Notes under the pieces: generated by a model | Databases searched by the model: none | The model's input: only the letters and a program-made list of their open reading frames with translations | Told to the model about the DNA's origin: nothing | Shown: positions 51,829 through 64,000 of the stretch, one piece after another | Layout: each line of letters starts with the position of its first letter | How positions within the stretch are numbered: the first letter of the stretch is position 1 | Made by a program: the position numbers and the translations under genes | Assembly (NCBI RefSeq): GCF_902652685.1 | Contig: NZ_CACRUY010000017.1 | Span: 1-64,000 of the forward strand | Source of the DNA: Mycobacterium sp. Marseille-P9652 | Lineage (GTDB): Bacteria; Actinomycetota; Actinomycetes; Mycobacteriales; Mycobacteriaceae | DNA length: 64,000 nt | Direction of reading: 5' to 3'

Positions 51829-52965
51829 ATGCCGAGGAGCCGTGACACCGACGCCTGCCCGGGCGCGCTGCAGGTGCATCAGGCCGCCGACGGCGAGCTG
51901 GCGAGGGTGCGTCTGCCCGGCGGCATGATCACCGCCGCCCAGCTGGCGACGCTGGCCCGCGTTTCGGCCGAGTCGGGTTCCGGGACGCTCGAACTGACCG
52001 CGCGCGGCAACGTGCAGGTGCGCGGCCTCACCGACGTGACGGCGGCCGGCGAGGCGATGGCCGGCGCGGGCCTGCTGCCCTCCGTGACGCACGAAAAGGT
52101 GCGCAACGTCGTCGCGTCGCCGCTGTCCGGCCGGGCCGGCGGCACCCGCGACGTGCGGGGGTGGGTCGAAGAGTTGGACGCGGCGATCTGCGCCGAGCCC
52201 ACGCTCGCCGGGCTGGGCGGCCGGTTCTGGTTCAGCCTGGACGACGGGCGCGCCGACGTGTCCGGACTGCGCGCCGACGTGGGTGTCCACGTGCTCGACG
52301 ACGCCTGTGCGCTGCTGCTGGCCGGGCGCGACACCGGCATACGGTTGGCGTTCGACGAGGCGGTCGAGGCGCTGGTCGCCTTGGCGCGACGTTTCGTCGA
52401 AATCCGCGGAAAAGCCTGGCGCGTCGGCGAATTGGGCGACCTGCGGGTGATGCTGCCCGGTGCCGAGCCGGCCGGGCCGTTATTCCCCGTTGTTACCAAG
52501 GGGCCGGTCGGGTGGGTCGGCCAGGACGACGGCCGCGTCACTCTGGCCGCCGGGGTGCCGCTGGGGATGCTGTCCGCCCGGGTCGCCGAGTTTCTGGCGG
52601 CGATCGAGGCGCCCATCGTGGTGACGCCGTGGCGCTCGGTGCTGGTGTGCGACCTCGAGGAAGCCGTCGCTGACACCGCTTTGCGTGTGCTGGCACCGCT
52701 CGGTCTGATCTTCGACGAGAACTCGCCCTGGCTGGGTGTCAGCGCCTGCACGGGCAGCCCTGGCTGCGCGCACTCGGCGGCCGACGTGCGCGCCGATGCC
52801 GCGCGATCGCTGGACGCGGACTACCCGGTGCACCGGCATTTCGTCGGCTGCGACCGCGCGTGCGGCAGCCCGCATGCCGGCGAGGTCCTGCTGGCAACGG
52901 GCGACGGATACCGCCCGCTATCCCGCGGCGAAGCCGGGCGAAGCGGATCGTCGCCGTCGTCCTAG
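51829..52965 (+). CDS. cobG: Precorrin-3B synthase CobG
   Basis: A 378-residue nitrite/sulfite-reductase-like protein that hydroxylates precorrin-3A to precorrin-3B with oxygen. It has two ferredoxin-like half domains (VRLPGGMITAAQLATLARV; the RGNVQVRGL strand) and the Fe4S4/siroheme cysteine cluster SACTGSPGCAHS plus GCDRACGSP near the C-terminus. I started at ATG 51829 because MPRSRDTDACPGALQVH is the usual opening and a -10 box precedes it; the frame is open upstream to 51748. It heads cobG-cobH-cobIJ. Confidence 0.94.
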   Translation: MPRSRDTDACPGALQVHQAADGELARVRLPGGMITAAQLATLARVSAESGSGTLELTARGNVQVRGLTDVTAAGEAMAGAGLLPSVTHEKVRNVVASPLSGRAGGTRDVRGWVEELDAAICAEPTLAGLGGRFWFSLDDGRADVSGLRADVGVHVLDDACALLLAGRDTGIRLAFDEAVEALVALARRFVEIRGKAWRVGELGDLRVMLPGAEPAGPLFPVVTKGPVGWVGQDDGRVTLAAGVPLGMLSARVAEFLAAIEAPIVVTPWRSVLVCDLEEAVADTALRVLAPLGLIFDENSPWLGVSACTGSPGCAHSAADVRADAARSLDADYPVHRHFVGCDRACGSPHAGEVLLATGDGYRPLSRGEAGRSGSSPSS

Positions 52966-52968
52966 GGT
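52963..52968 (+). promoter_or_regulatory. cobH: Candidate -10 box of cobH overlapping the cobG stop
   Basis: TAGGGT, whose TAG is the cobG stop codon, 6 bases before the GTG at 52975. This would allow a leaderless cobH message in addition to the operon transcript. Confidence 0.35.
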
Positions 52969-52974
52969 TATCGA

Positions 52975-53601
52975 GTGCTCGACTACCTCCGCGACGCCGC
53001 CGAGATCTACCGGCAGTCGTTCGCGGCGATCCGCGCCGAAGCGGACCTCGACCGGTTCCCCGGGGACGTCGCCCGGGTGGTGGTCCGGTTGATCCACACG
53101 TGCGGGCAGGTCGACGTCGCCGAGCACGTCGCCTACACCGACGACGTGGTCGCGCGCGCGGGCGAAGCCCTGCGCGCCGGCGCGCCGGTGCTGTGCGACT
53201 CGTCGATGGTCGCCGCCGGGATCACCGCCGCGCGGCTGCCGGCCCGCAACGAGGTGGTGTCGCTGGTCGCCGACCCGCGCGCTGCCGAGCACGCCGAAAA
53301 GGGGCAAACCACCCGCTCGGCGGCGGGCGTGGAACTGTGGGCCGACCGGCTGCCCGGCGCCGTGCTGGCCATCGGCAACGCGCCCACCGCCCTGTTCCGC
53401 CTGCTCGAGCTGGTCGACGAGGGGTTGTCCCCGCCGGCCGCCGTGCTGGGCGGCCCCGTCGGCTTCGTCGGTTCCGCCCAGTCCAAGGACGAGCTCATCG
53501 CCCGTCCGCGCGGGATGGCCTACCTCGTGGTGCGTGGCCGCCGCGGCGGCAGCGCCATGGCCGCCGCCGCCGTCAACGCGATCGCCAGCGAGCGCGAATG
53601 A
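52975..53601 (+). CDS. cobH: Precorrin-8X methylmutase CobH
   Basis: A 208-residue enzyme, the same length as M. tuberculosis CobH, that moves the C-11 methyl group to C-12, giving hydrogenobyrinic acid. The catalytic His41 is in [23 protein letters not shown] and [15 protein letters not shown] are conserved. It starts 9 bases after cobG and its stop overlaps the cobIJ start (ATGA). Confidence 0.97.
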
Positions 53602-55076
53602 CCGGCCGCGGCACGTTGTACGGGGTCGGACTCGGCCCGGGCGACCCGGAGCTGGTGACCGTCAAGGCCGCCCGGGTGATCGGCGAGGCCGACGTCGTCG
53701 CCTATCACAGCGCCCGGCACGGCCGCAGCATCGCCCGCGGCATCGCGGCGCCGTATCTGCGGCCCGGGCAGATCGAAGAGCACCTGGTCTATCCCGTGAC
53801 CACCGAGACGACCGATCATCCGGGCGGCTACGCGGGCGCGCTCGAGGACTTCTATGCCGAGGCCACGCGGCGCATCGCCGCGCACCTCGACGCCGGCCGC
53901 GACGTCGCGTTGCTCGCCGAGGGTGACCCGCTCTTCTACAGCTCCTACATGCACCTGCACACCCGGCTCACCGAGCGGTTCAACGCGGAGATCATCCCGG
54001 GCGTGACGTCGGTGAGCGCCGCCTCCGCGGCCATCGCCACACCCTTGGTGGCCGGCGACGAGGTGCTCTCGGTGCTGCCGGGGACCCTGCCCGTCGCCGA
54101 GCTGACCCGCCGGCTCGCCGATGCGGACGCGGCCGTGGTGCTCAAGCTTGGTCGTTCCTACGGCGCTGTGCGCGAGGCGCTTTCGGCGTCCGGACAACTT
54201 GACGGGGCGTTCTACGTCGAGCGGGCCAGCACGGCCGGGCAACGGGTCATGCCGGCCGCGGACGTCGACGAGAGCAGCGTGCCCTACTTCTCGCTCGCGA
54301 TGCTGCCGGGGGGCAGGCGGCGTGCCGGGAATGCGCCGGCCGGAACCGTGACGGTGGTGGGCCTGGGCCCCGGCGACCTGGATTGGATGACGCCGCAGAG
54401 CCGGCGCGAGCTCGCGGCCGCGACCGATCTCATCGGCTACCACGGCTACCTCGACCGGGTGCCGGCCCGCGACGGCCAACGCCGCCATCCCAGCGACAAC
54501 GCCGACGAGCCGGCGCGGGCACGGCTGGCCTGCGCGCTCGCCGAGCAGGGCTGCGCCGTCGCGGTGGTGTCCTCGGGAGATCCTGGCGTGTTCGCGATGG
54601 CGACCGCGGTGCTCGAGGAGGCCAAGCAGTGGCCGGGCGTGCGGGTGCGCGTGATCCCCGCGATGACGGCCGCGCAGGCCGTCGCCAGCCGGGTCGGGGC
54701 GCCGCTGGGCCACGACTACGCGGTGATTTCGTTGTCCGACCGGCTCAAGCCCTGGGAGGTGATCTCGGCGCGGCTCGGCGCGGCGGCCGCCGCCGACCTC
54801 GTCCTGGCCATCTACAACCCGGCGTCGAAGACGCGCACCTGGCAGGTGGGCGCGATGCGCGACATCCTGCTTGACCACCGCGAGCCGGGGACGCCGGTGG
54901 TGATCGGTCGCGACGTGTCGGGACCCGGTGAGGACGTCCGCGTCGTGCGCCTGGCCGACCTCGACCCCGCCGACGTCGACATGCGCTGCCTGCTCATCGT
55001 CGGGTCTTCTCAAACCCAGTGGTACGCGGACGATTCCGGCGACCGGGTGTTCACTCCGCGCCGCTACCCGGGGTGA
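53598..55076 (+). CDS. cobI: Bifunctional precorrin-2 C20-/precorrin-3B C17-methyltransferase CobIJ
   Basis: A 492-residue fusion of two SAM-dependent methyltransferases. Residues 1-240 are CobI ([45 protein letters not shown]). Residues ~245-492 are CobJ ([42 protein letters not shown]). CobI methylates C-20 of precorrin-2; CobJ methylates C-17 with ring contraction. M. tuberculosis Rv2066 has the same fusion. The ATGA overlap couples it to cobH. It ends 4 bases from a convergent flavodoxin-like gene. Confidence 0.97.
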
Positions 55077-55747: not shown

Positions 55748-58693
55748 TCACTGCGACGGGTGACCGACAGGCTCCGGCCGCGCGACGACCGCACCGTTGT
55801 GTTCAGGTGCGGGATTGGCCTTGTCACCCAGCATGAGGGCGCGGACCAGGGGACGCGGCCCGAACGGCCGCAGCATGTAACTTGCCGGGCGCGGACGGAC
55901 TTTCAGCGGCCACCAGAACCAGCGGCCGAGCAGAGCGGCGATCGACGGTGTCATGAACGAGCGCACGATCAGGGTGTCGAACAGCAGGCCGAGCCCGATC
56001 GTGGTGCCGGCCTGACCGATCGAGCGCAGGTCGCTGGCGGCCATCGACATCATGGTGAAGGCGAACACCAATCCCGCCGAGGTGACGACGCCGCCGGTCT
56101 CGCCCATCGAGCGGATGATGCCGGTCCGCAAGCCCGCGCCGAGCTCCTCCTGGAACCGCGACACCAGCAGCAGGTTGTAGTCCGAGCCCACGGCGAGAAG
56201 GATGATCAGCCCGAACACCGGCGCGATCCAGTTCAAATCCAGACCCAGAATGTGTTGCCAGACAAGCACAGACAGCCCGAATGCCGCGCCCAGCGAGAGC
56301 AACACCGTGCCGACGATCACCAGCGAGGCGACCAGCGCGCGGGTGATGATGACCATCACCGCGAAGATGAGTGTCAGCGCCGCGATCCCGACGATCAACA
56401 GGTCGTAGCGCGAACCCGCCTGGATGTCGCGGTAGATGGCCGCCGTCCCCGCGAGGTAGAACGTCGCATCGGTGAGCGTGGTTCCCTTCACCGCCTGATG
56501 CGCGGCGGCCAGTTCGGGCTCGACCGCCGCGATGCCCTTCGGGGTCGCCGGGTCCGCGTCATGGGTGATGATGAAGCGCGCGGCCTTGCCGTCCGGTGAC
56601 AGGAAGAGCCGCAGACCGCGCTGAAAGTCCGGATTCTGGAAGGCTTCCGGGGGCAGGTAGAAGTAATCGCCACTCTTGGAGGCGTCGAAGGCCTGGCCCA
56701 TCGCGCTGGCCGTGTCGGTCATCTGGGTCATCTGTGTGACGAGGCCCGAGAAGCTGCTGTGCATCGTGAGCAGGGTGCCCTGCATGGATTTCGCGACGGC
56801 GATGATCGGCGGGAACTCGGCGACCATCTGCGGCATGATCGCGTCGACGTCGTTCATGTCCTTGATCAGCGTGGTCATGTTCTCGCTGAATTTGTCCACG
56901 CCGTCCATCGCCTCGAACACCGACCGCGTCGCCTGGCAGACCGGGATGTTGAAACAGTGTTGCTCCCAGTACAAGTAACTGCGCAACGGCCGGGCGAAAT
57001 CGTCGAAGTCGGCCAGGTGGTCCCGCATCTCGTCCAGGGTGGCCTGCATGTCGTGCATGGCGCCGACCATGTGGTGGGTCCGGTCGCTCAGCTGCCCCAC
57101 CAGGGCCTGCATCCGCTCCATCGAGGCGATCATGGCGCCGAGGTCGTCGCTCATCTTCAGCATGTCGTCCGTCCGGTCCCGCATGAACCGAAGGTTCTGC
57201 TGGATCGGGATCGATTGGGCGCTGATCTGAAACGGAATCGATGTGTGCTCGATCGGACCACCCAGCGGCCGCGTAATGCTCTGCACCATCGCGATTCCCG
57301 GTGACCGGAAGACGTCTTTGGCCACCCTGTCCAGAATGATCATGTCGCCGGTGTTCCGCATGTCGTGATCGCTCTCGACCATGAGGATGTCCGGATTCAT
57401 TGTCGCGGCGCTGAAATGGCGCTCGGCGGCCTCGTATCCGACGTTCGAGGGCAGATCGGCGGGTATGTAGAAGCGGTCGTTGAAGCTGAGCTTCATGCTC
57501 GGCATGATGGCGATCCCGACGAGGGCGATCAGCAGCGAGGCCACGAAGATCGGTCCGGGCCAACGGACGGTGGCGGTCCCCATCCGTCGCCAACCCCGTG
57601 TCTTGATCTTCCGTTTCGGGTCGAGCAGACCGAAGCGGCTCGCGACAGCGACCACGGCGGGGGCCGCGGTGAGCGCACCGGCGACGACGACGATCAGGCC
57701 CAACGCGGACGGGATACCCAGCGCCTTGAAGTACGAGAGCCGCGCCAAGTGCAGGCACAAGGTGGCGCCCGCGATGGTCAGCCCCGAACCCAGAATGATG
57801 TGAAACGTCCCGCGAAACATGCTGTAGTAGGCCGCTTCTCGATCCAGGCCGGCCTGACGGGCCTCCTGGTAGCGACCGATGAGGAAGATCGCGTAGTCGG
57901 TTCCCGCGGCGATGGCCAGCGACGACAACATGGCGACCACGAACGTCGAGAATCCCAGCAGATCCTTGCTGCCCAGGAGGGCGACCAACCCTCTGGCCGT
58001 GCCCATCTCGAACCCCACCATGACCAGGACGAGCAGCACCGTGCTGACCGAGCGATAGGCGAGGAAGAGCATGATCATGATGACCAGGCCGGTCACGCCC
58101 ATCATCACGAACATGCTTTTGTCGGCGGCCTCGTTCATGTCGGTGGTCAGCGGCCCCGGTCCGGTGACGTACACCTTGAGCCCCTTAGGCGGCGCCGACC
58201 GGTCGACGATTTCGCGCACCGCTTTGACGGACTCGTTTCCCAACGTGCTGCCCTGGTTGCCGGCCAGGTTCAATTCGACGTAGGCGGCCTTGCCGTCTCG
58301 GCTCTGGACGCCCGCCGCGGTGAGTGGATCCCCCCAGACGTTTTGAACGTGCTGCACGTGCTTGGGGTCGGCCCCGAGTTTCTGCACGAGGGCGTCGTAG
58401 TAGCGGTGCGCCTCACCCCCGAGGTCACCGAGGTCTTTGTCGCTCTCGAGCACGATCATCGCGATGCTGTCGGAGTCCGACTCGTGGTACTTCGCACCGA
58501 TGCGCTTGGCCGCGATCATCGCCGGCGCGTCTTGCGGCGACATCGTCACCGCGTGGCTCCGCGCCACCGATTCGATGGGCGGCACCAGCACGTTGAGCGC
58601 GACGGTCAGCAGCAGCCAGGCGATGATGATCGGCCATGCGAAGCGGTGCACGAACCGCATGAATGCTGGACGAGCATCGCTGCCGGCGCTCAT
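55748..58693 (-). CDS. MmpL family RND transporter
   Basis: A 981-residue mycobacterial large membrane protein that exports a lipid or siderophore using the proton gradient. It has the family plan: helix 1 (FAWPIIIAWLLLTVALNVLV), a periplasmic domain, five helices with AAGTDYAIFLIGRYQEARQA near residue 266, a second large helical periplasmic domain (~400-735) with a Cys pair, and the second helix bundle with AVGSDYNLLLVSRFQEELGA near 836. The two Asp-Tyr pairs are the proton relay. It is closest in style to the MmpL4/MmpL5 group, which works with an MmpS. The ATG at 58693 overlaps mmpS (ATGA). Confidence 0.95.
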   Translation of the reverse strand: MSAGSDARPAFMRFVHRFAWPIIIAWLLLTVALNVLVPPIESVARSHAVTMSPQDAPAMIAAKRIGAKYHESDSDSIAMIVLESDKDLGDLGGEAHRYYDALVQKLGADPKHVQHVQNVWGDPLTAAGVQSRDGKAAYVELNLAGNQGSTLGNESVKAVREIVDRSAPPKGLKVYVTGPGPLTTDMNEAADKSMFVMMGVTGLVIMIMLFLAYRSVSTVLLVLVMVGFEMGTARGLVALLGSKDLLGFSTFVVAMLSSLAIAAGTDYAIFLIGRYQEARQAGLDREAAYYSMFRGTFHIILGSGLTIAGATLCLHLARLSYFKALGIPSALGLIVVVAGALTAAPAVVAVASRFGLLDPKRKIKTRGWRRMGTATVRWPGPIFVASLLIALVGIAIMPSMKLSFNDRFYIPADLPSNVGYEAAERHFSAATMNPDILMVESDHDMRNTGDMIILDRVAKDVFRSPGIAMVQSITRPLGGPIEHTSIPFQISAQSIPIQQNLRFMRDRTDDMLKMSDDLGAMIASMERMQALVGQLSDRTHHMVGAMHDMQATLDEMRDHLADFDDFARPLRSYLYWEQHCFNIPVCQATRSVFEAMDGVDKFSENMTTLIKDMNDVDAIMPQMVAEFPPIIAVAKSMQGTLLTMHSSFSGLVTQMTQMTDTASAMGQAFDASKSGDYFYLPPEAFQNPDFQRGLRLFLSPDGKAARFIITHDADPATPKGIAAVEPELAAAHQAVKGTTLTDATFYLAGTAAIYRDIQAGSRYDLLIVGIAALTLIFAVMVIITRALVASLVIVGTVLLSLGAAFGLSVLVWQHILGLDLNWIAPVFGLIILLAVGSDYNLLLVSRFQEELGAGLRTGIIRSMGETGGVVTSAGLVFAFTMMSMAASDLRSIGQAGTTIGLGLLFDTLIVRSFMTPSIAALLGRWFWWPLKVRPRPASYMLRPFGPRPLVRALMLGDKANPAPEHNGAVVARPEPVGHPSQ

Positions 58694-59121
58694 GCGGCCT
58701 TCACCAAACAGAACGTCTGGGCGTCGCGTCCGGCCGAGGAGTGCTCGGCCTTGACCTCTCCGTTGACGGTGATGCGACATCCGATGGTGTCGCTGTTGCC
58801 CTGCGCCACCAGGTTGGCCATGACGGCCGGCACCGTCGTCTCGATGGTGTAGCTCCACGGGAGGTTGGTGAAGTCGGCCTGCTGGGGCTGGGCGTTCTTG
58901 TCCAGGTAGCTCACGCTGCCTGACGTCTCGCCGGGTCCGTAGACCTCGTAGGTCACCTGCTTGACATGTGACGGTTCGAGCGGCCTGGCGCTGCTGCCGG
59001 TGGCGGTGAAGATGGCGTCCGAGCCGAACACTCCGCGAAGCCGGTCGACGGCGACCCCACCGACGGTGACTGCCACGACGACCACGAGCGGGACCCACGC
59101 GCGCTTGACCAGGGTCAACAT
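58690..59121 (-). CDS. MmpS family membrane-anchored accessory protein
   Basis: A 143-residue protein with one N-terminal membrane helix (AWVPLVVVVAVTVGGVAVDRL) and a periplasmic beta-sandwich (VTYEVYGPGETSGSVSYLD, LPWSYTIETTVPAVMANLVA, CRITVNGEVKAEHSS). MmpS proteins assist MmpL transporters, as MmpS4 and MmpS5 do in siderophore export. GGAGAGGAGG precedes the ATG at 59121, an unusually strong ribosome site. Its stop overlaps mmpL. A CsoR-like palindrome lies in the promoter region. Confidence 0.94.
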   Translation of the reverse strand: MLTLVKRAWVPLVVVVAVTVGGVAVDRLRGVFGSDAIFTATGSSARPLEPSHVKQVTYEVYGPGETSGSVSYLDKNAQPQQADFTNLPWSYTIETTVPAVMANLVAQGNSDTIGCRITVNGEVKAEHSSAGRDAQTFCLVKAA

Positions 59122-59577
59122 CGTTGCCTCCTCTCCGTCACGGCCGGATCCCTCGCTGCGTAGTGTCGGCCCGCCGCCGAGGCGACCAATAGGGCCGATA
59201 GGCCCTGCACCGAGGGCCACGGGGAACGAAAACCCGATTGGTCACCGGCCCGGCATGGCATCACGCTCGAGGCGACACACTCAGATATACCATACCCCCT
59301 AGGGTATAGCAACGGGCGCAGAAGACCGTCCGCCGTTACCCGGGTAGTTCGCTTCGCCGCCCCGCCAGAGGCGCCTCGCTCACGCTCGCGGAGGACCCTC
59401 CGCCCAACCGCTCGGCAGCATCGGCAGGACGGGCCCGCCGCCACCCAGCGTCCTGAGGCCGACCGCCGGTGCGCCACCGGATTCGCCCGTCACACCGGCG
59501 AATCCGATGCGTCCGGCCCCGCGTTCGTTGCGCGGCACCTTTGGTTCCCGCGCGACTTCTTTGCGCCCGGACCGGCG
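59122..59577. other. Divergent intergenic region between mmpS and the zinc-finger/sigC gene
   Basis: A 456-base gap, among the longest in the window. It holds the palindrome-bearing mmpS promoter (59284-59312). The part from 59320 to 59577, upstream of the zinc-finger gene, has no clear promoter that I can see. No coding frame looks real. Confidence 0.5.
59284..59312 (-). promoter_or_regulatory. mmpS-mmpL promoter with CsoR/RicR-like operator
   Basis: On the minus strand: -35 TTGCTA (59307-59312), a 17-base spacer, -10 TATATC (59284-59289). The spacer holds ATACCC-CCTA-GGGTAT (59292-59307), a perfect 6-base-arm palindrome of the TACCC...GGGTA type bound by copper-sensing CsoR/RicR-family repressors. 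Repressor there would cover the spacer and block polymerase. No CsoR gene lies in the window. Assignment to a metal is inference. Confidence 0.6.
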
Positions 59578-60939
59578 ATGCGCAACGATGCAGGGATGCG
59601 GTGTGACGTTGCGCGCGAGGCGCTTTCTGCGCGGTTGGACGGCGAGCGCCCGCAGGTGCTCGCGCAGCAGGTCGACGCCCACCTCGAAACCTGCCGCGGT
59701 TGTCGATCCTGGCTGATCGGCGCGGCAGTGCAGACCCGTCGACTGGCCTCCGCCGGGCCCGGCCAGGCGCCGGACCTGGTGAACACGATCCTGGCGCGCG
59801 TCGGGGTTGCGTCGCCCGGCGGGGATGGTCGCTGGATGCGCGCGGTGCGATCACGTTACCGGCGCTTCGGACTGGTCGCGGTCGGGCTGTTCCAGGTGGC
59901 CATCGCGGCCGCCCAGATCGGCGGCATCGACTTCGGCATGATCTCGTCCCACATGCATGGGGCGATGTCCGGTGAGCACCTGATGCACGAGTCCACCGCG
60001 TGGCTGCTGGCGCTCGGGATGGCCATGATCGCGGCCGGCATCTGGCCCGTCACCGCGATCGGCGTCGCGGCGATCACCGGGGTGTACTCCGTGGCGCTCC
60101 TGGGTTACGTGATCGTCGACGCCTTCGACGGCGAGGTGACCGCGGCGCGCATCGCCAGCCACATGCCCCTGCTCCTCGGCCTGGCGTTCGCGGTGCTGGT
60201 CGCCCGGGAACGCGTCGGCGCGCACGGCGACCGCCCCGCCGACGCCTCCCCCGTCGACCGCAACCCGCCACGCGCCGCATCGCCCGCCGGGCGCCGGCGC
60301 GCCCACCTGTGGCCCATCAACCGGGCCGTCGCTACGACGACCCGTCGTAGGCTGGTCCGCCCGGCGACACTAAGGTTGTTCGGCATGACCGCGTCCAGCG
60401 ACGACGAGGCCGTCACCGCGCTGGCCCTCGCGGCCGCCGGCGGGGATGCCGGGGCGCTCGAGGCGTTCATCAGGGCCACCCAGCAGGACGTGTGGCGGTT
60501 CGTCGCCTACCTGTCGGACGCGGGCAACGCCGATGACCTGACCCAGGAGACCTTCCTGCGCGCGATCGGTGCCATCGAACGCTTCTCGGCACGTTCCAGC
60601 GCGCGGACGTGGCTGCTGTCCATCGCCCGTCGGGTCGTCGCCGATCACATCCGCTACGCGCAGTCGCGGCCGCGCGCGGCGGTCGGCGCCGATCCCGAGC
60701 ATTTCCCGCGCGGGGACGGCCACGCGCGCGGGTTCGAGGACCTCGTCGAGGTGACCGCGATGATCGCCAACCTCAGCACCGAACAGCGCGAGGCATTGCT
60801 GCTCACCCAGCTGCTCGGCCTGCCCTATGCCGACGCCGCGGCGGTGTGCGGCTGTCCCGTGGGCACGATCCGGTCCCGCGTCGCGCGCGCCCGCGACGCC
60901 CTGCTGGCCGACGCCGAACGCGAAGACCTCACCGGCTAG
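59578..60939 (+). CDS. Zinc-finger membrane protein continuous in frame with sigma factor C
   Basis: A 453-residue frame. Residues 1-50 are an anti-sigma-type zf-HC2 finger ([12 protein letters not shown]; likely ligands Cys9, His35, Cys39, Cys42). Residues 96-205 hold about four hydrophobic segments with a His/Met-rich loop [16 protein letters not shown] (123-138) that looks suited to bind copper. A basic, Pro-rich linker follows. From Met270 the chain is sigma factor C. Membrane zinc-finger proteins of this type usually hold an ECF sigma factor inactive; here the two would be one chain. M. tuberculosis sigC has no such neighbour. ATG 59578 is the first start; ATG 59596 gives [10 protein letters not shown], the usual zf-HC2 opening, and may be the true one. 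Confidence 0.75.
60332..60350. promoter_or_regulatory. sigC: Perfect hairpin/palindrome just upstream of sigC
   Basis: CTACGACG (60332-60339) and CGTCGTAG (60343-60350) pair perfectly around a 3-base loop. The element ends 20 bases before the candidate sigC -10 box, so it covers the -35 region. It could be an operator, or an RNA hairpin separating the zinc-finger message from sigC. Confidence 0.45.
60371..60376 (+). promoter_or_regulatory. sigC: Candidate -10 box of sigC (leaderless)
   Basis: TAAGGT, 8 bases before the ATG at 60385. It matches TANNNT and would give a leaderless sigC message independent of the upstream zinc-finger frame. Confidence 0.5.
60385..60939 (+). CDS. sigC: ECF sigma factor SigC (own start)
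   Basis: A 184-residue product from ATG 60385, essentially the length of M. tuberculosis SigC (185). Region 2 is [35 protein letters not shown] and [20 protein letters not shown]; region 4 is [20 protein letters not shown] and [20 protein letters not shown]. SigC directs a small virulence-related regulon in M. tuberculosis, which includes genes tied to copper acquisition. I think this is the functional sigma product, since a -10 box and a palindrome precede it. Its stop shares CTAG with the convergent cobK stop. Confidence 0.85.
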
Positions 60940-61661
60940 CCCAACCCCGCGACCCAGTCGGCCGCGTCCTGCACGGCGCCGACGGTCCGCACCCCCGGCG
61001 GCAGCGGCGGGCGCGCCACCATCACCACCGGAATATTAAGCGCCGCAGCCGCATCCAGCTTGGCCCGGGTCATGTCACCGCCGCTGTTCTTGGTCACCAG
61101 GGCCTTGATGTCGTGCTCGCGCAGCAGCCCCAGTTCGTCGTCGTAGCGGTACGGGCCGCGCGAGAGCACCAGCCGGGTACGTCGCGGCAGTACGGCGGCG
61201 TCGGGCTCCGTGACCGCCCGGATCAGGAACCATGCGTCGCTGCCGGCGAAGGCCTCGACGCCCGAGCGGCCCGTGGTCAGGAACACCCGCGGGTACCCTT
61301 GCAACGCAACGACCTTGGCGGCCTCGACGTCCGAGGCGACGACGATCGCGCCACCGGGGTCCCATGCGGGACGGGCGAGCACCAGTAGCGGTATCCGCAT
61401 CTCGTCGCACGCGAGCGCGGCGTGGGCGGTCATGGTCGCCGCGAACGGGTGGGTGGCGTCGACGACGGCGTCGATGTGGTTGTCCGCCAGGTATTGCCGC
61501 AGCCCGGGCACACCGCCGAAACCGCCGATCCGCACCGGACCGACCGGCAACGCGGGATCGGGCACCCGGCCGGCCAGCGAACTGACGATGTCGACCTGCG
61601 GGTGCAGCGCCTTCGCCAGCGCGCGGGCCTCGGCGGTGCCCCCGAGCAGCAGCACGCGCAT
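60936..61661 (-). CDS. cobK: Precorrin-6A reductase CobK
   Basis: A 241-residue NADPH-dependent reductase converting precorrin-6A to precorrin-6B. It has [53 protein letters not shown] and [18 protein letters not shown], all family signatures. The ATG at 61661 overlaps the cobM stop by one base (TGATG). It is the last gene of cobL-cobM-cobK and ends against sigC, as in M. tuberculosis. Confidence 0.97.
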
Positions 61662-62416
61662 CAGTGCCGGCTCCCCCGGGTTCGCCCGGTGGAGTACAGG
61701 TAGCTGTCGGTGAATCCCTCGGCGGCCAGCGCGTCGCCCACGACGATGACGGCGGTCTTGGTGATGCCGGCGTCGTGCACCTGAGCGGCGATGCAGGCGA
61801 GCGTGCCGCGCAGAACGGTCTCTTGCGGCCAACTCACGAAAGCAACGACGGCCGTGGGTGTTTCGGGTCGGTACCCGCCTTCGAGGAGTTCGGGGACGAT
61901 GGCGTCGATCTGGGCGGCGGCCAGGTGCAGGACCAGGGTGCCGCCGGACGCGGCAAGGGTGCGCAGTTCTTCCCCGGGCGGCATGGGTGTCGACAGGGTG
62001 GCCACCCGGGTCAGCGTCACGGTCTGGGCCACGCCGGGCACGGTGAGCTCGCGCTTCAGGGCGGCGGCCGCCGCCGCGAATGCCGGCACGCCCGGCACGA
62101 TCTCGTAGTCGATGCCCCGCTCGTCCAGACGCCGGCACTGCTCGGCCAGCGCGCTGTACAGCGACGGGTCACCGGAGTGCAGCCGCGCGACATCGTCACC
62201 GGCGGCGTGGGCGTGTGCGAGTTCGTCGACGATCTGATCGAGCGTCAGCGGGCCGGTGTCAACGATTTTCGCGCCGGGGGGGCACAGCGCCAGCAGGTCG
62301 TCGGGCATGATCGACCCCGCGTAGAGGCAGGTGGTGCATCGTTGCAGCAGGCGCTGGCCGCGGACGGTGATGAGGTCGGCCGCGCCGGGGCCCGCACCGA
62401 TGAAGTACACCGTCAT
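61661..62416 (-). CDS. cobM: Precorrin-4 C11-methyltransferase CobM
   Basis: A 251-residue SAM-dependent methyltransferase, the same length as in M. tuberculosis. VYFIGAGPGAADLITVRGQR is the N-terminal loop; LYAGSIMPDDLLALC, ARLHSGDPSLYSAL and YEIVPGVPAFAAAAA are the class III methyltransferase motifs. The ATG at 62416 overlaps cobL (ATGA). The frame stays open far upstream, antisense-like, so the start rests on homology. Confidence 0.97.
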   Translation of the reverse strand: MTVYFIGAGPGAADLITVRGQRLLQRCTTCLYAGSIMPDDLLALCPPGAKIVDTGPLTLDQIVDELAHAHAAGDDVARLHSGDPSLYSALAEQCRRLDERGIDYEIVPGVPAFAAAAAALKRELTVPGVAQTVTLTRVATLSTPMPPGEELRTLAASGGTLVLHLAAAQIDAIVPELLEGGYRPETPTAVVAFVSWPQETVLRGTLACIAAQVHDAGITKTAVIVVGDALAAEGFTDSYLYSTGRTRGSRH

Positions 62417-63582
62417 CGCGTCAGCACCCATTGGGTGACCGGATACTGCGGGCGCCAACCGGTGAAGCCGCCCAGCGGCTCGCCCTGATAGTGCTGGAAC
62501 CGGTGCAGCTGGCCGCCGTGCTTCGAATGATACTGTGCCAGAACCGCTTCCGATTCGGCGGTGACGACGTTGGCGACCAGCCTCGAGCCTTTCGGCAGGT
62601 GTTCCAGACACGCGTCGAGCAGGCCCAGCTGGGTCAGACCGCCGCCGATGAAGATGGCCGACGGTGCGTCCGCCCCGTCGAACGCGTCGGGCGCGGCGCC
62701 GCGCACGTCGATGCCGACTCCGAAGGCCGCCGCGTTGGTGGTGATGTTGGCGCGGCGCCGCTCGTCGCGCTCGAACGCCACCGCGGTGCATCCGGGCCAG
62801 CGCAGGCACCATTCCACGCTGATGCTGCCGGAGCCCGCGCCGACGTCCCACAACCGCTCCCCCGGCCGCGGTGCCAGGGCCGCCAGGGTGGCCGCGCGGA
62901 TTGCGAGTTTGGTGATCTGGCCGTCGCTGGCGAACGCGGCGTCGGGAAGTGGCGAGACGCGCTCGTCGGGCAGGTAGCGCACGGCGGTGACGTTGAGGTC
63001 GTCGACGTCGGGTGGGTCGGCTGCCCACTGACGGGCCGTCCCATCGCGGCGCCGCTCGGTTGGGCCGCCGAGGTGTTCGAGCACGGTGAACTCGGAGTCG
63101 CCGCGTCCGTGAGCGGCGAGCAACGACGCCAATTCCGTTGGGGTGGAGCGGTCGCGGGCCAGCACGACCGCCTGCCCACCCCGGCGCACCGCCGTGTGGG
63201 GCGGCGCGGTGACCAGGCTGATCACCTCGGTCTCCTGGACGGTCCAGCCCATCCGCGCGCACGCCAGCGTCACCGAGGACACGTGCGGCAGCACGGTGAC
63301 CCTCTCCGCGCCGTGCAGCCGGATCAAAGTGCCGCCGACGCCGTGCAGCAGTGGGTCGCCGCTGGCCACCACGTGGACGTCCTCCGTGTGGCGATCGGGC
63401 AGGCTTCGCAGGGCGGGCAGCATCGGCGACGGCCATTCGTGGCGCGGGGCGGACACGGTGTCGTCGAGCAGGTCGAGCTGCCGCTTCGACCCGTAAATGA
63501 CTGTGGCTCTGCGTAATTGGTGGCGTGAGCTTTCGGCCAGGCCCGCCATGCCGTCGGCGCCGATTCCCACGACGATGATCAT
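62413..63582 (-). CDS. cobL: Precorrin-6Y C5,15-methyltransferase (decarboxylating) CobL
   Basis: A 389-residue two-domain enzyme. Residues 1-205 (CobE-like: VVGIGADGMAGLAESSRHQL, VVASGDPLLHGVG) methylate C-5 or C-15. Residues ~230-389 are a Rossmann methyltransferase (LWDVGAGSGSISVEWCLRWP, AIFIGGGLTQLGLLDACLEH) that methylates the other position and decarboxylates the C-12 acetate. The ATG at 63582 gives the conserved N-terminus. It heads cobL-cobM-cobK. Confidence 0.97.
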   Translation of the reverse strand: MIIVVGIGADGMAGLAESSRHQLRRATVIYGSKRQLDLLDDTVSAPRHEWPSPMLPALRSLPDRHTEDVHVVASGDPLLHGVGGTLIRLHGAERVTVLPHVSSVTLACARMGWTVQETEVISLVTAPPHTAVRRGGQAVVLARDRSTPTELASLLAAHGRGDSEFTVLEHLGGPTERRRDGTARQWAADPPDVDDLNVTAVRYLPDERVSPLPDAAFASDGQITKLAIRAATLAALAPRPGERLWDVGAGSGSISVEWCLRWPGCTAVAFERDERRRANITTNAAAFGVGIDVRGAAPDAFDGADAPSAIFIGGGLTQLGLLDACLEHLPKGSRLVANVVTAESEAVLAQYHSKHGGQLHRFQHYQGEPLGGFTGWRPQYPVTQWVLTR

Positions 63583-63632
63583 TGCGCGCCGCTCCTCCCC
63601 ATCGCTTCGCTCTGCATCGTCGCCGGCGCGGA

Positions 63633-64000
63633 TCATCGCGGCATCCTGCGCCACACGGCCTGCGGCAGCAGCCGCATGACGAAGAAGGTCGGCTGCAGCG
63701 CCCACGGGATCCACACGGTGCGGCGGCCTTTCGCGAGAGCGCGCGCGGTCGCCGCGGCGACCTGCTCTGGCGTGCTGGACAGCGGAGCGGGCGTCATGCC
63801 CTGCGTCATGCGGCCGATGACGAATCCGGGGCGGGCGATCAGGAGCTTGACGCCCGTGCCGTGCAGCGCGTCGGCGAGCCCGCAGGCGAAGCCGTCCAGG
63901 CCGGCCTTCGCCGAGCCGTACACATAGTTGGCGCGGCGGACCCGGACGCCGGCCACCGAGGAGAACACTACGAGGGTGCCGCGCCCCGCCGCCCGCATCG
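63633..64000 (-). CDS. Short-chain dehydrogenase, N-terminus beyond right edge (Rv2073c-like)
   Basis: The last ~122 residues of an SDR; the start lies beyond the window. Visible are the catalytic Ser region VVFSSVAGVRVR, Tyr-x3-Lys in YVYGSAKAGLDGF, and KLLIARPGFVIGRMT. The C-terminal amphipathic end (PTFFVMRLLPQAVWRRMP) is typical of the DprE2-like group of mycobacterial SDRs. M. tuberculosis Rv2073c occupies the same place next to cobL. Confidence 0.88.
   Translation of the reverse strand, partial: MRAAGRGTLVVFSSVAGVRVRRANYVYGSAKAGLDGFACGLADALHGTGVKLLIARPGFVIGRMTQGMTPAPLSSTPEQVAAATARALAKGRRTVWIPWALQPTFFVMRLLPQAVWRRMPR

Follow-up and report, generated by a model that had tools for sequence, protein, structure and literature searches.

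Which regulator acts on a palindrome in the promoter of an mmpS-mmpL pair is the question raised by this locus. The initial annotation had placed a TACCC...GGGTA palindrome upstream of the pair, between TTGCTA and TATATC with 17 bases between them, and had taken it for the operator of a CsoR-family copper sensor. The window (the whole stretch of DNA that was analysed, 64,000 nucleotides) carries the features listed below. Papers are cited by PMC number.

55748..58693, minus strand: mmpL, an MmpL4/MmpL5-type RND exporter (PF03176, TIGR00833).
58690..59121, minus strand: mmpS (PF05423), with ATG at 59121-59119 and a stop that overlaps the mmpL start (ATGA).
59284..59289, minus strand: -10-like hexamer TATATC; the GGTA-type -10 region is conserved beside the operator.
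59290..59292, minus strand: TGG, extended -10 directly before TATATC and overlapping the operator end (from sequence and conserved Gs).
59292..59307, strand not assigned: candidate operator, the 16-bp palindrome ATACCCCCTAGGGTAT, of the TAC-8-GTA class.
59307..59312, minus strand: -35-like hexamer TTGCTA, sharing one base with the operator.
59578..60939, plus strand: divergent open frame with zf-HC2, DUF2275 and, at its end, an ECF-type sigma factor; not claimed as a target.

Promoter, palindrome and conservation at mmpS

The gene pair is of the MmpS-MmpL (RND) type, with a PF05423 protein followed by a PF03176/TIGR00833 protein. On the minus strand, TTGCTA (59312-59307) is followed by 17 bases and then TATATC (59289-59284), as initially annotated, except that 15 of the 16 palindrome bases lie inside the spacer and the remaining one overlaps TTGCTA. 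The palindrome halves, read from the sequence as ATACCC and GGGTAT on either side of TAGG (59292-59307), thus fall within the mmpS-mmpL promoter, and the operator ends about 170 bp ahead of the mmpS ATG (59121). Its G-tracts, its TAC/GTA inverted repeats and its location inside a promoter agree with the definition of a CsoR-family (PF02583) operator given in PMC3902906. The assignment to this operator family appears to be right. TTGCTA was rejected as a true -35 element, as it is not conserved in the mmpS promoters of relatives.

For conservation analysis, 26 named loci were fetched by the window's MmpS protein (25 named Mycobacterium and one bin, 'Actinomycetes bacterium'). Sites in relatives were searched as TACC[CT]-N4 or N5-[AG]GGTA, allowing one altered base per half. 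Of the 26 loci, 23 have a site with 8 bases between TAC and GTA (8-spaced) no more than 450 bp from mmpS, and none has one with 9 bases (9-spaced). The remaining three loci (L032, L040, L041) have an 8-spaced site with 1, 1 and 2 mismatches, respectively; in these, the CsoR-family gene designated reg3 lies upstream of mmpS in the same direction. Promoter rows were reduced from 45 to 35 distinct sequences, with loci lacking a site left out. Conservation of the half-sites in these rows is by construction, because the sites were picked using them. Outside the core, the preceding A is present in 35/35 and the following T in 33/35 distinct promoters, the GGTA of the -10 region is kept in 28-31/35, and G is found at +15 in 28/35 and at +16 in 31/35.

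The window's own genome has 13 mmpS-family matches; in the loci fetched around them (3.2-3.4 kb), such a site was present only at the window's mmpS. A tree of MmpL (27 rows; best matching stretch per MmpL only, with L022 and L036 matching in two pieces) grouped the genomic settings in part and gave the window's row no firm place, and was therefore used only for the statement that the settings are several. Some loci recur between the collections; L071 and L170, for instance, have the same coordinates and match.

Spacing class and regulator residues

Three PF02583 genes were found in the genome: RicR (C40; 192 bits on the NCBIfam RicR model, cut-off 175), a second copper-type gene (C1) and reg3 (G000:C8:106045-106311). 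Perfect ATACCCN4GGGTAT was found three times, before reg3 (C8), before mmpS (C17) and about 30 bp upstream of the ATG in the case of an Rv2466c-like thiol reductase gene (C18). These units are scattered over three contigs here, each keeping its operator. The reg3 promoter contains two TACCCN4GGGTA sites (TAC-8-GTA), the same class as at mmpS; TACCCN5GGGTA (TAC-9-GTA) was found at the ricR promoter, at a mymT-like gene (named by eye) and at seven places in a copper island. The palindrome at mmpS, which the initial annotation had proposed to check as a mark of csoR/ricR and copper efflux genes, was thus found at a regulator of the family, reg3, and at thiol-redox genes, and not at ricR or the second copper-type gene.

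The copper island (G000:C1:110302-119428, L064) holds the second copper-type CsoR/RicR, a Met-rich protein and the seven 9-spaced sites. As an exception, it also has an 8-spaced site at C1:119364 (1 mismatch in the 16-mer), about 35 bp from the 9-spaced site at 119414; the adjacent pair is a possible point of crosstalk.

Regulator promoters were compared across loci within 300 bp of the start. Loci fetched by the site pattern were excluded, repeated upstream sequences were counted once, and L089 was omitted for too little upstream sequence. Among 51 distinct reg3 promoters, 48 had an 8-spaced site (47 in the strict form) and none a 9-spaced site, the expected site being absent from three. Copper-type promoters showed the reverse, with 9-spaced sites in 11/17 and 8-spaced sites in 0/17; five of the six without a near site have a 9-spaced site farther off in the locus and one has none. 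This recount replaced a count that had included loci fetched by the 8-spaced pattern (reg3 52/55, copper-type 9/14). Loci fetched by the reg3 protein itself had the 8-spaced site in all 29 usable cases (of 30).

The regulators differ in the corresponding residues. C35, G60 and C64 are present in 53/53 reg3 proteins, with glycine at the position of the copper histidine; in copper-type proteins, Cys, His and Cys occupy these positions (13/13). In these residues, two cysteines but no His where the metal would be bound, the PF02583 protein reg3 resembles CstR, and the mmpS site, with 8 rather than 9 bases between TAC and GTA, departs from the RicR/CsoR copper operator (type 2). The best PDB match of reg3 was the nickel sensor InrS (54.4 bits), followed by 7mq1 (44.6 bits), which we take to be E. 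faecalis CstR (the PDB record names csoR), and CsoR chains (28-42 bits). At the position aligned to reg3 Gly60, 7mq1 has Asn and 7mq3 has Ala, neither carrying His. Against NCBIfam, reg3 scored far below the RicR and FrmR cut-offs and matched no CstR model.

These counts suggest a reading rule for mycobacteria, by which 9-base spacing would indicate copper-type sensors and 8-base spacing a thiol sensor; the rule holds for the compared loci only, because the layout of TTHA1953 and the site of M. tuberculosis CsoR differ. TAC-X9-GTA is the form of most copper CsoR sites; the site of M. tuberculosis CsoR does not have the TAC-9-GTA form (PMC3902906). TTHA1953 of Thermus, placed nearest CstR by its authors, prefers the layout TACNNTACNNNNGTANNGTA, and a one-base change of the spacer made binding about 10-15-fold weaker (PMC10318464); spacing thus matters in the family, but sulfur sensors do not all share the 8-base form. 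In S. coelicolor, ScCsoR detects sulfane sulfur via Cys37/Cys66 and binds ATACCn6GGTAT (PMC7533328). This consensus is not clean support for a sulfur-specific 8-base class, because RicR and Geobacillus CsoR sites were among its inputs (PMC7533328).

Association of reg3 with mmpS and its probable role

In 13 of the 26 named loci, reg3 lies next to mmpS in divergent orientation and is followed by genes for an Rv2466c-like protein (PF22234) and a DUF302 protein (PF03625); Pfam assignment of this operon was run on one locus, L016. Twelve of the 13 have two 8-spaced sites 32-33 bp apart, consistent with one site per divergent promoter. All 25 genomes behind the 26 loci (L030 and L022 share one assembly) encode reg3 (E ≤2.3e-29), including those of 9 loci in which reg3 is not near mmpS.

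Across the genus, TACCCN4GGGTATGGTA was found in 24 of 148 genomes, all of which have reg3 (E below 1e-25). At the same threshold, reg3 was absent from 22 genomes, and none of these has the strict pattern (hypergeometric 0.015, kinship ignored). The site lies in an mmpS locus in 21 of the 24 genomes, beside a reg3 operon without detected mmpS in two and beside neither in one. The strict mmpS-type pattern is absent from 102 of the 126 genomes with reg3, so mmpS control of this kind does not extend to the whole genus.

The operator class is shared by the regulator and sulfur/thiol genes, as in CstR systems: reg3, DUF302 and Rv2466c-like genes and, in relatives, thioredoxin, AhpD-like and SQR-like genes. 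Many reg3 loci hold thioredoxin and AhpD-like (PF02627) genes, with 8-spaced sites between thioredoxin and reg3. In L030 and L032, 8-spaced sites precede the probable start of a flavoprotein named SQR-like, a tentative name because it scored 59 bits on the SQR model (cut-off 525). The window's genome gave no match to this flavoprotein, and SQR was rejected as a further target there.

A cluster in Mycobacterium interjectum (L030:1354-9359, L195) contains thioredoxin, AhpD-like, reg3, DUF302, SQR-like flavoprotein and mmpS-mmpL genes with four 8-spaced sites; among the loci examined, it is the most complete form of the presumed sulfur regulon. The M. tuberculosis counterpart of reg3 is presumably Rv1766. 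This protein is annotated only as a putative transcription factor with structural similarity to CsoR (PMC8562490).

The mmpS-mmpL palindrome is probably the operator of reg3, which would act as a dithiol sensor of the CstR kind for persulfide or thiol stress and repress mmpS-mmpL. This proposal draws on the site, its conservation and spacing class, the regulator residues and the shared and split gene arrangements, all read from sequence. Reduced reg3 would bind the TAC-8-GTA site, covering the -35/spacer region, and prevent RNA polymerase from using the extended -10, so that mmpS-mmpL would stay silent. Modification of C35 and C64 by persulfides, polysulfides or other thiol-reactive stress would release reg3 from the DNA, and mmpS-mmpL would then be transcribed together with reg3-DUF302 and the Rv2466c-like thiol reductase; in relatives, thioredoxin, the AhpD-like protein and the SQR-like flavoprotein would be released as well. 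The exporter would move some substrate as part of a thiol/sulfur-stress response.

Among characterised systems, CstR (S. aureus cst operon) and ScCsoR (S. coelicolor SCO0620) share with reg3 the two cysteines without His at the Gly60-aligned position, the 16-bp ATACCn6GGTAT frame, autoregulation and linked sulfur/thiol genes. Their targets differ, being rhodaneses, persulfide dioxygenase, a sulfite exporter and SQR (PMC7533328, PMC10318464); the target passages of these papers name no MmpS-MmpL exporter, DUF302 protein or Rv2466c-like reductase. No description of an MmpS-MmpL/reg3 regulon was found in titles or abstract beginnings within a partial coverage of the literature.

Cargoes of MmpL exporters include siderophores and lipids, among other compounds, and it is often unclear which signal induces an exporter; a conserved operator that joins an MmpL4/5-type exporter to a sulfur-reactive sensor would provide a specific, testable signal. 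The window's MmpL matches the MmpL4 (1263 bits) and MmpL5 (1176 bits) PDB chains over nearly the whole length, and the difference from the siderophore exporters MmpS4-MmpL4 and MmpS5-MmpL5 lies in regulation, the site class being present at one of the 13 mmpS-family matches. A further-reaching version is rather unlikely: slow-growing mycobacteria would answer sulfane-sulfur/thiol stress through a regulon governed by a CstR-like sensor, with a dedicated MmpS-MmpL exporter as its effector, which would remove a sulfur-carrying or thiol-damaged molecule from the cell. A persulfidated low-molecular-weight thiol or lipid would be an example of such cargo, and the pair would then be an RND-type export arm of reactive-sulfur defence. 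The Rv2466c-like reductase, DUF302, thioredoxin and AhpD-like genes form a gene set for a cargo search.

Control of the site by reg3 in response to another signal (formaldehyde or another electrophile, disulfide stress, or another metal held by the two cysteines) is possible, if doubtful; it is a variant of the preferred explanation, and the probabilities of the two overlap. The family includes formaldehyde and nickel/cobalt sensors (PMC5016687), and InrS, the best PDB match, is a nickel-responsive repressor (PMC4235346), but reg3 has no His where InrS and CsoR have one. General thiol-redox genes (thioredoxin, AhpD-like, Rv2466c-like) are among the neighbours besides sulfur genes. Sulfur sensing is favoured by the SQR-like gene with the same operator class in some relatives (L030, L032) and by the spacing of the two invariant cysteines, 29 residues apart as are Cys37 and Cys66 of ScCsoR (PMC7533328).

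Copper control, in which the mmpS palindrome would be occupied by RicR or by the second copper-type CsoR until copper releases it, is quite improbable. The regulators belong to the same structural family and the TACCC...GGGTA half-sites are near-identical, but the sites are 9-spaced at ricR, the mymT-like gene and most copper-island places versus 8-spaced at mmpS. The genome does hold two copper-type regulators with Cys-His-Cys and one 8-spaced site with 1 mismatch within the copper island; across loci, however, no copper-type promoter (0/17) had an 8-spaced site and no mmpS locus (0/26) a 9-spaced one. The 8-base class precedes reg3, which lacks the copper histidine and is divergent from mmpS in half of the named loci, and copper-type neighbours such as the mymT-like gene belong to the RicR/CsoR regulons. 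A connection of some MmpL systems to copper is shown by M. bovis, in which loss of TbD1 (mmpS6-mmpL6) altered copper-responsive gene expression (PMC9048740). MmpS6-MmpL6 resembles the window's pair as an MmpS-MmpL pair, and is tied to stress, namely oxidative stress, hypoxia and copper (PMC9048740); the terms palindrom-, motif and operator are absent from the main text of that paper. Because of spacing and regulator residues, copper control was rejected as the leading reading, and the copper-sensor assignment of the initial annotation is probably wrong.

A chance or non-regulatory origin is extremely improbable, given an 8-spaced site (≤2 mismatches) upstream of mmpS in 26/26 named loci in several genomic settings and three full ATACCCN4GGGTAT sites at functionally linked genes versus 0.018 expected in the 5.7-Mb genome. 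The palindrome is real, non-random and conserved. The exact 16-mer at ≤3 mismatches occurred once in the window versus 0.07 per shuffle; the expected counts for the genome were taken from a first-order Markov model of the window. The shorter core TACCCN4GGGTA has 8 perfect places in the genome (0.49 expected), two of them inside coding sequence (C4:44734 and C14:73919; ftsH-like and msrA-like genes, named by eye); no clear target gene was found for C37:48146. With 4 to 6 middle bases, the exact core was found at 19 places versus 3 for the control. Mismatch scans were less specific: the core at ≤1 mismatch was not enriched (65 places versus 120 for the reversed control), and the 16-mer at ≤2 mismatches gave 57 versus 29, which was too noisy, so the regulon was not extended by that scan.

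The divergent sigma-factor frame

The frame at 59578-60939 (+) has 453 codons and begins with zf-HC2 and DUF2275 membrane domains. Its ECF-type sigma factor is taken to be SigC from its sequence and the cobalamin-gene neighbours. SigC was rejected as the reason for the operator: sigC was found near mmpS in the window and in 3 of the 26 named loci, and the site is kept in those where it was not found.

The frame is stop-free (451-460 codons) in 15/15 loci; the window is one of these, and at least two genomes occur among them more than once. For the N-terminal part of the frame, matches (E up to 0.001) were found in 39 of 60 genomes of the genus. Most loci have an ATG with an AAGG-type ribosome site before the sigma part, which leaves either a fusion or an overlap. 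From its sequence, the zf-HC2/DUF2275 part is a candidate anti-sigma factor for SigC. For M. tuberculosis, no SigC anti-sigma factor had been identified according to PMC7924339, in which SigC is linked to copper starvation. The DUF2275 region contains a His/Met-rich stretch (59938-59994, +) that could bind a metal such as copper.

By eye, from translations, cobalamin biosynthesis genes seem to flank mmpS-mmpL-sigC at 52860-55076 and 60936-63714. Similar cobalamin-type genes adjoin mmpL in L022 and L029.
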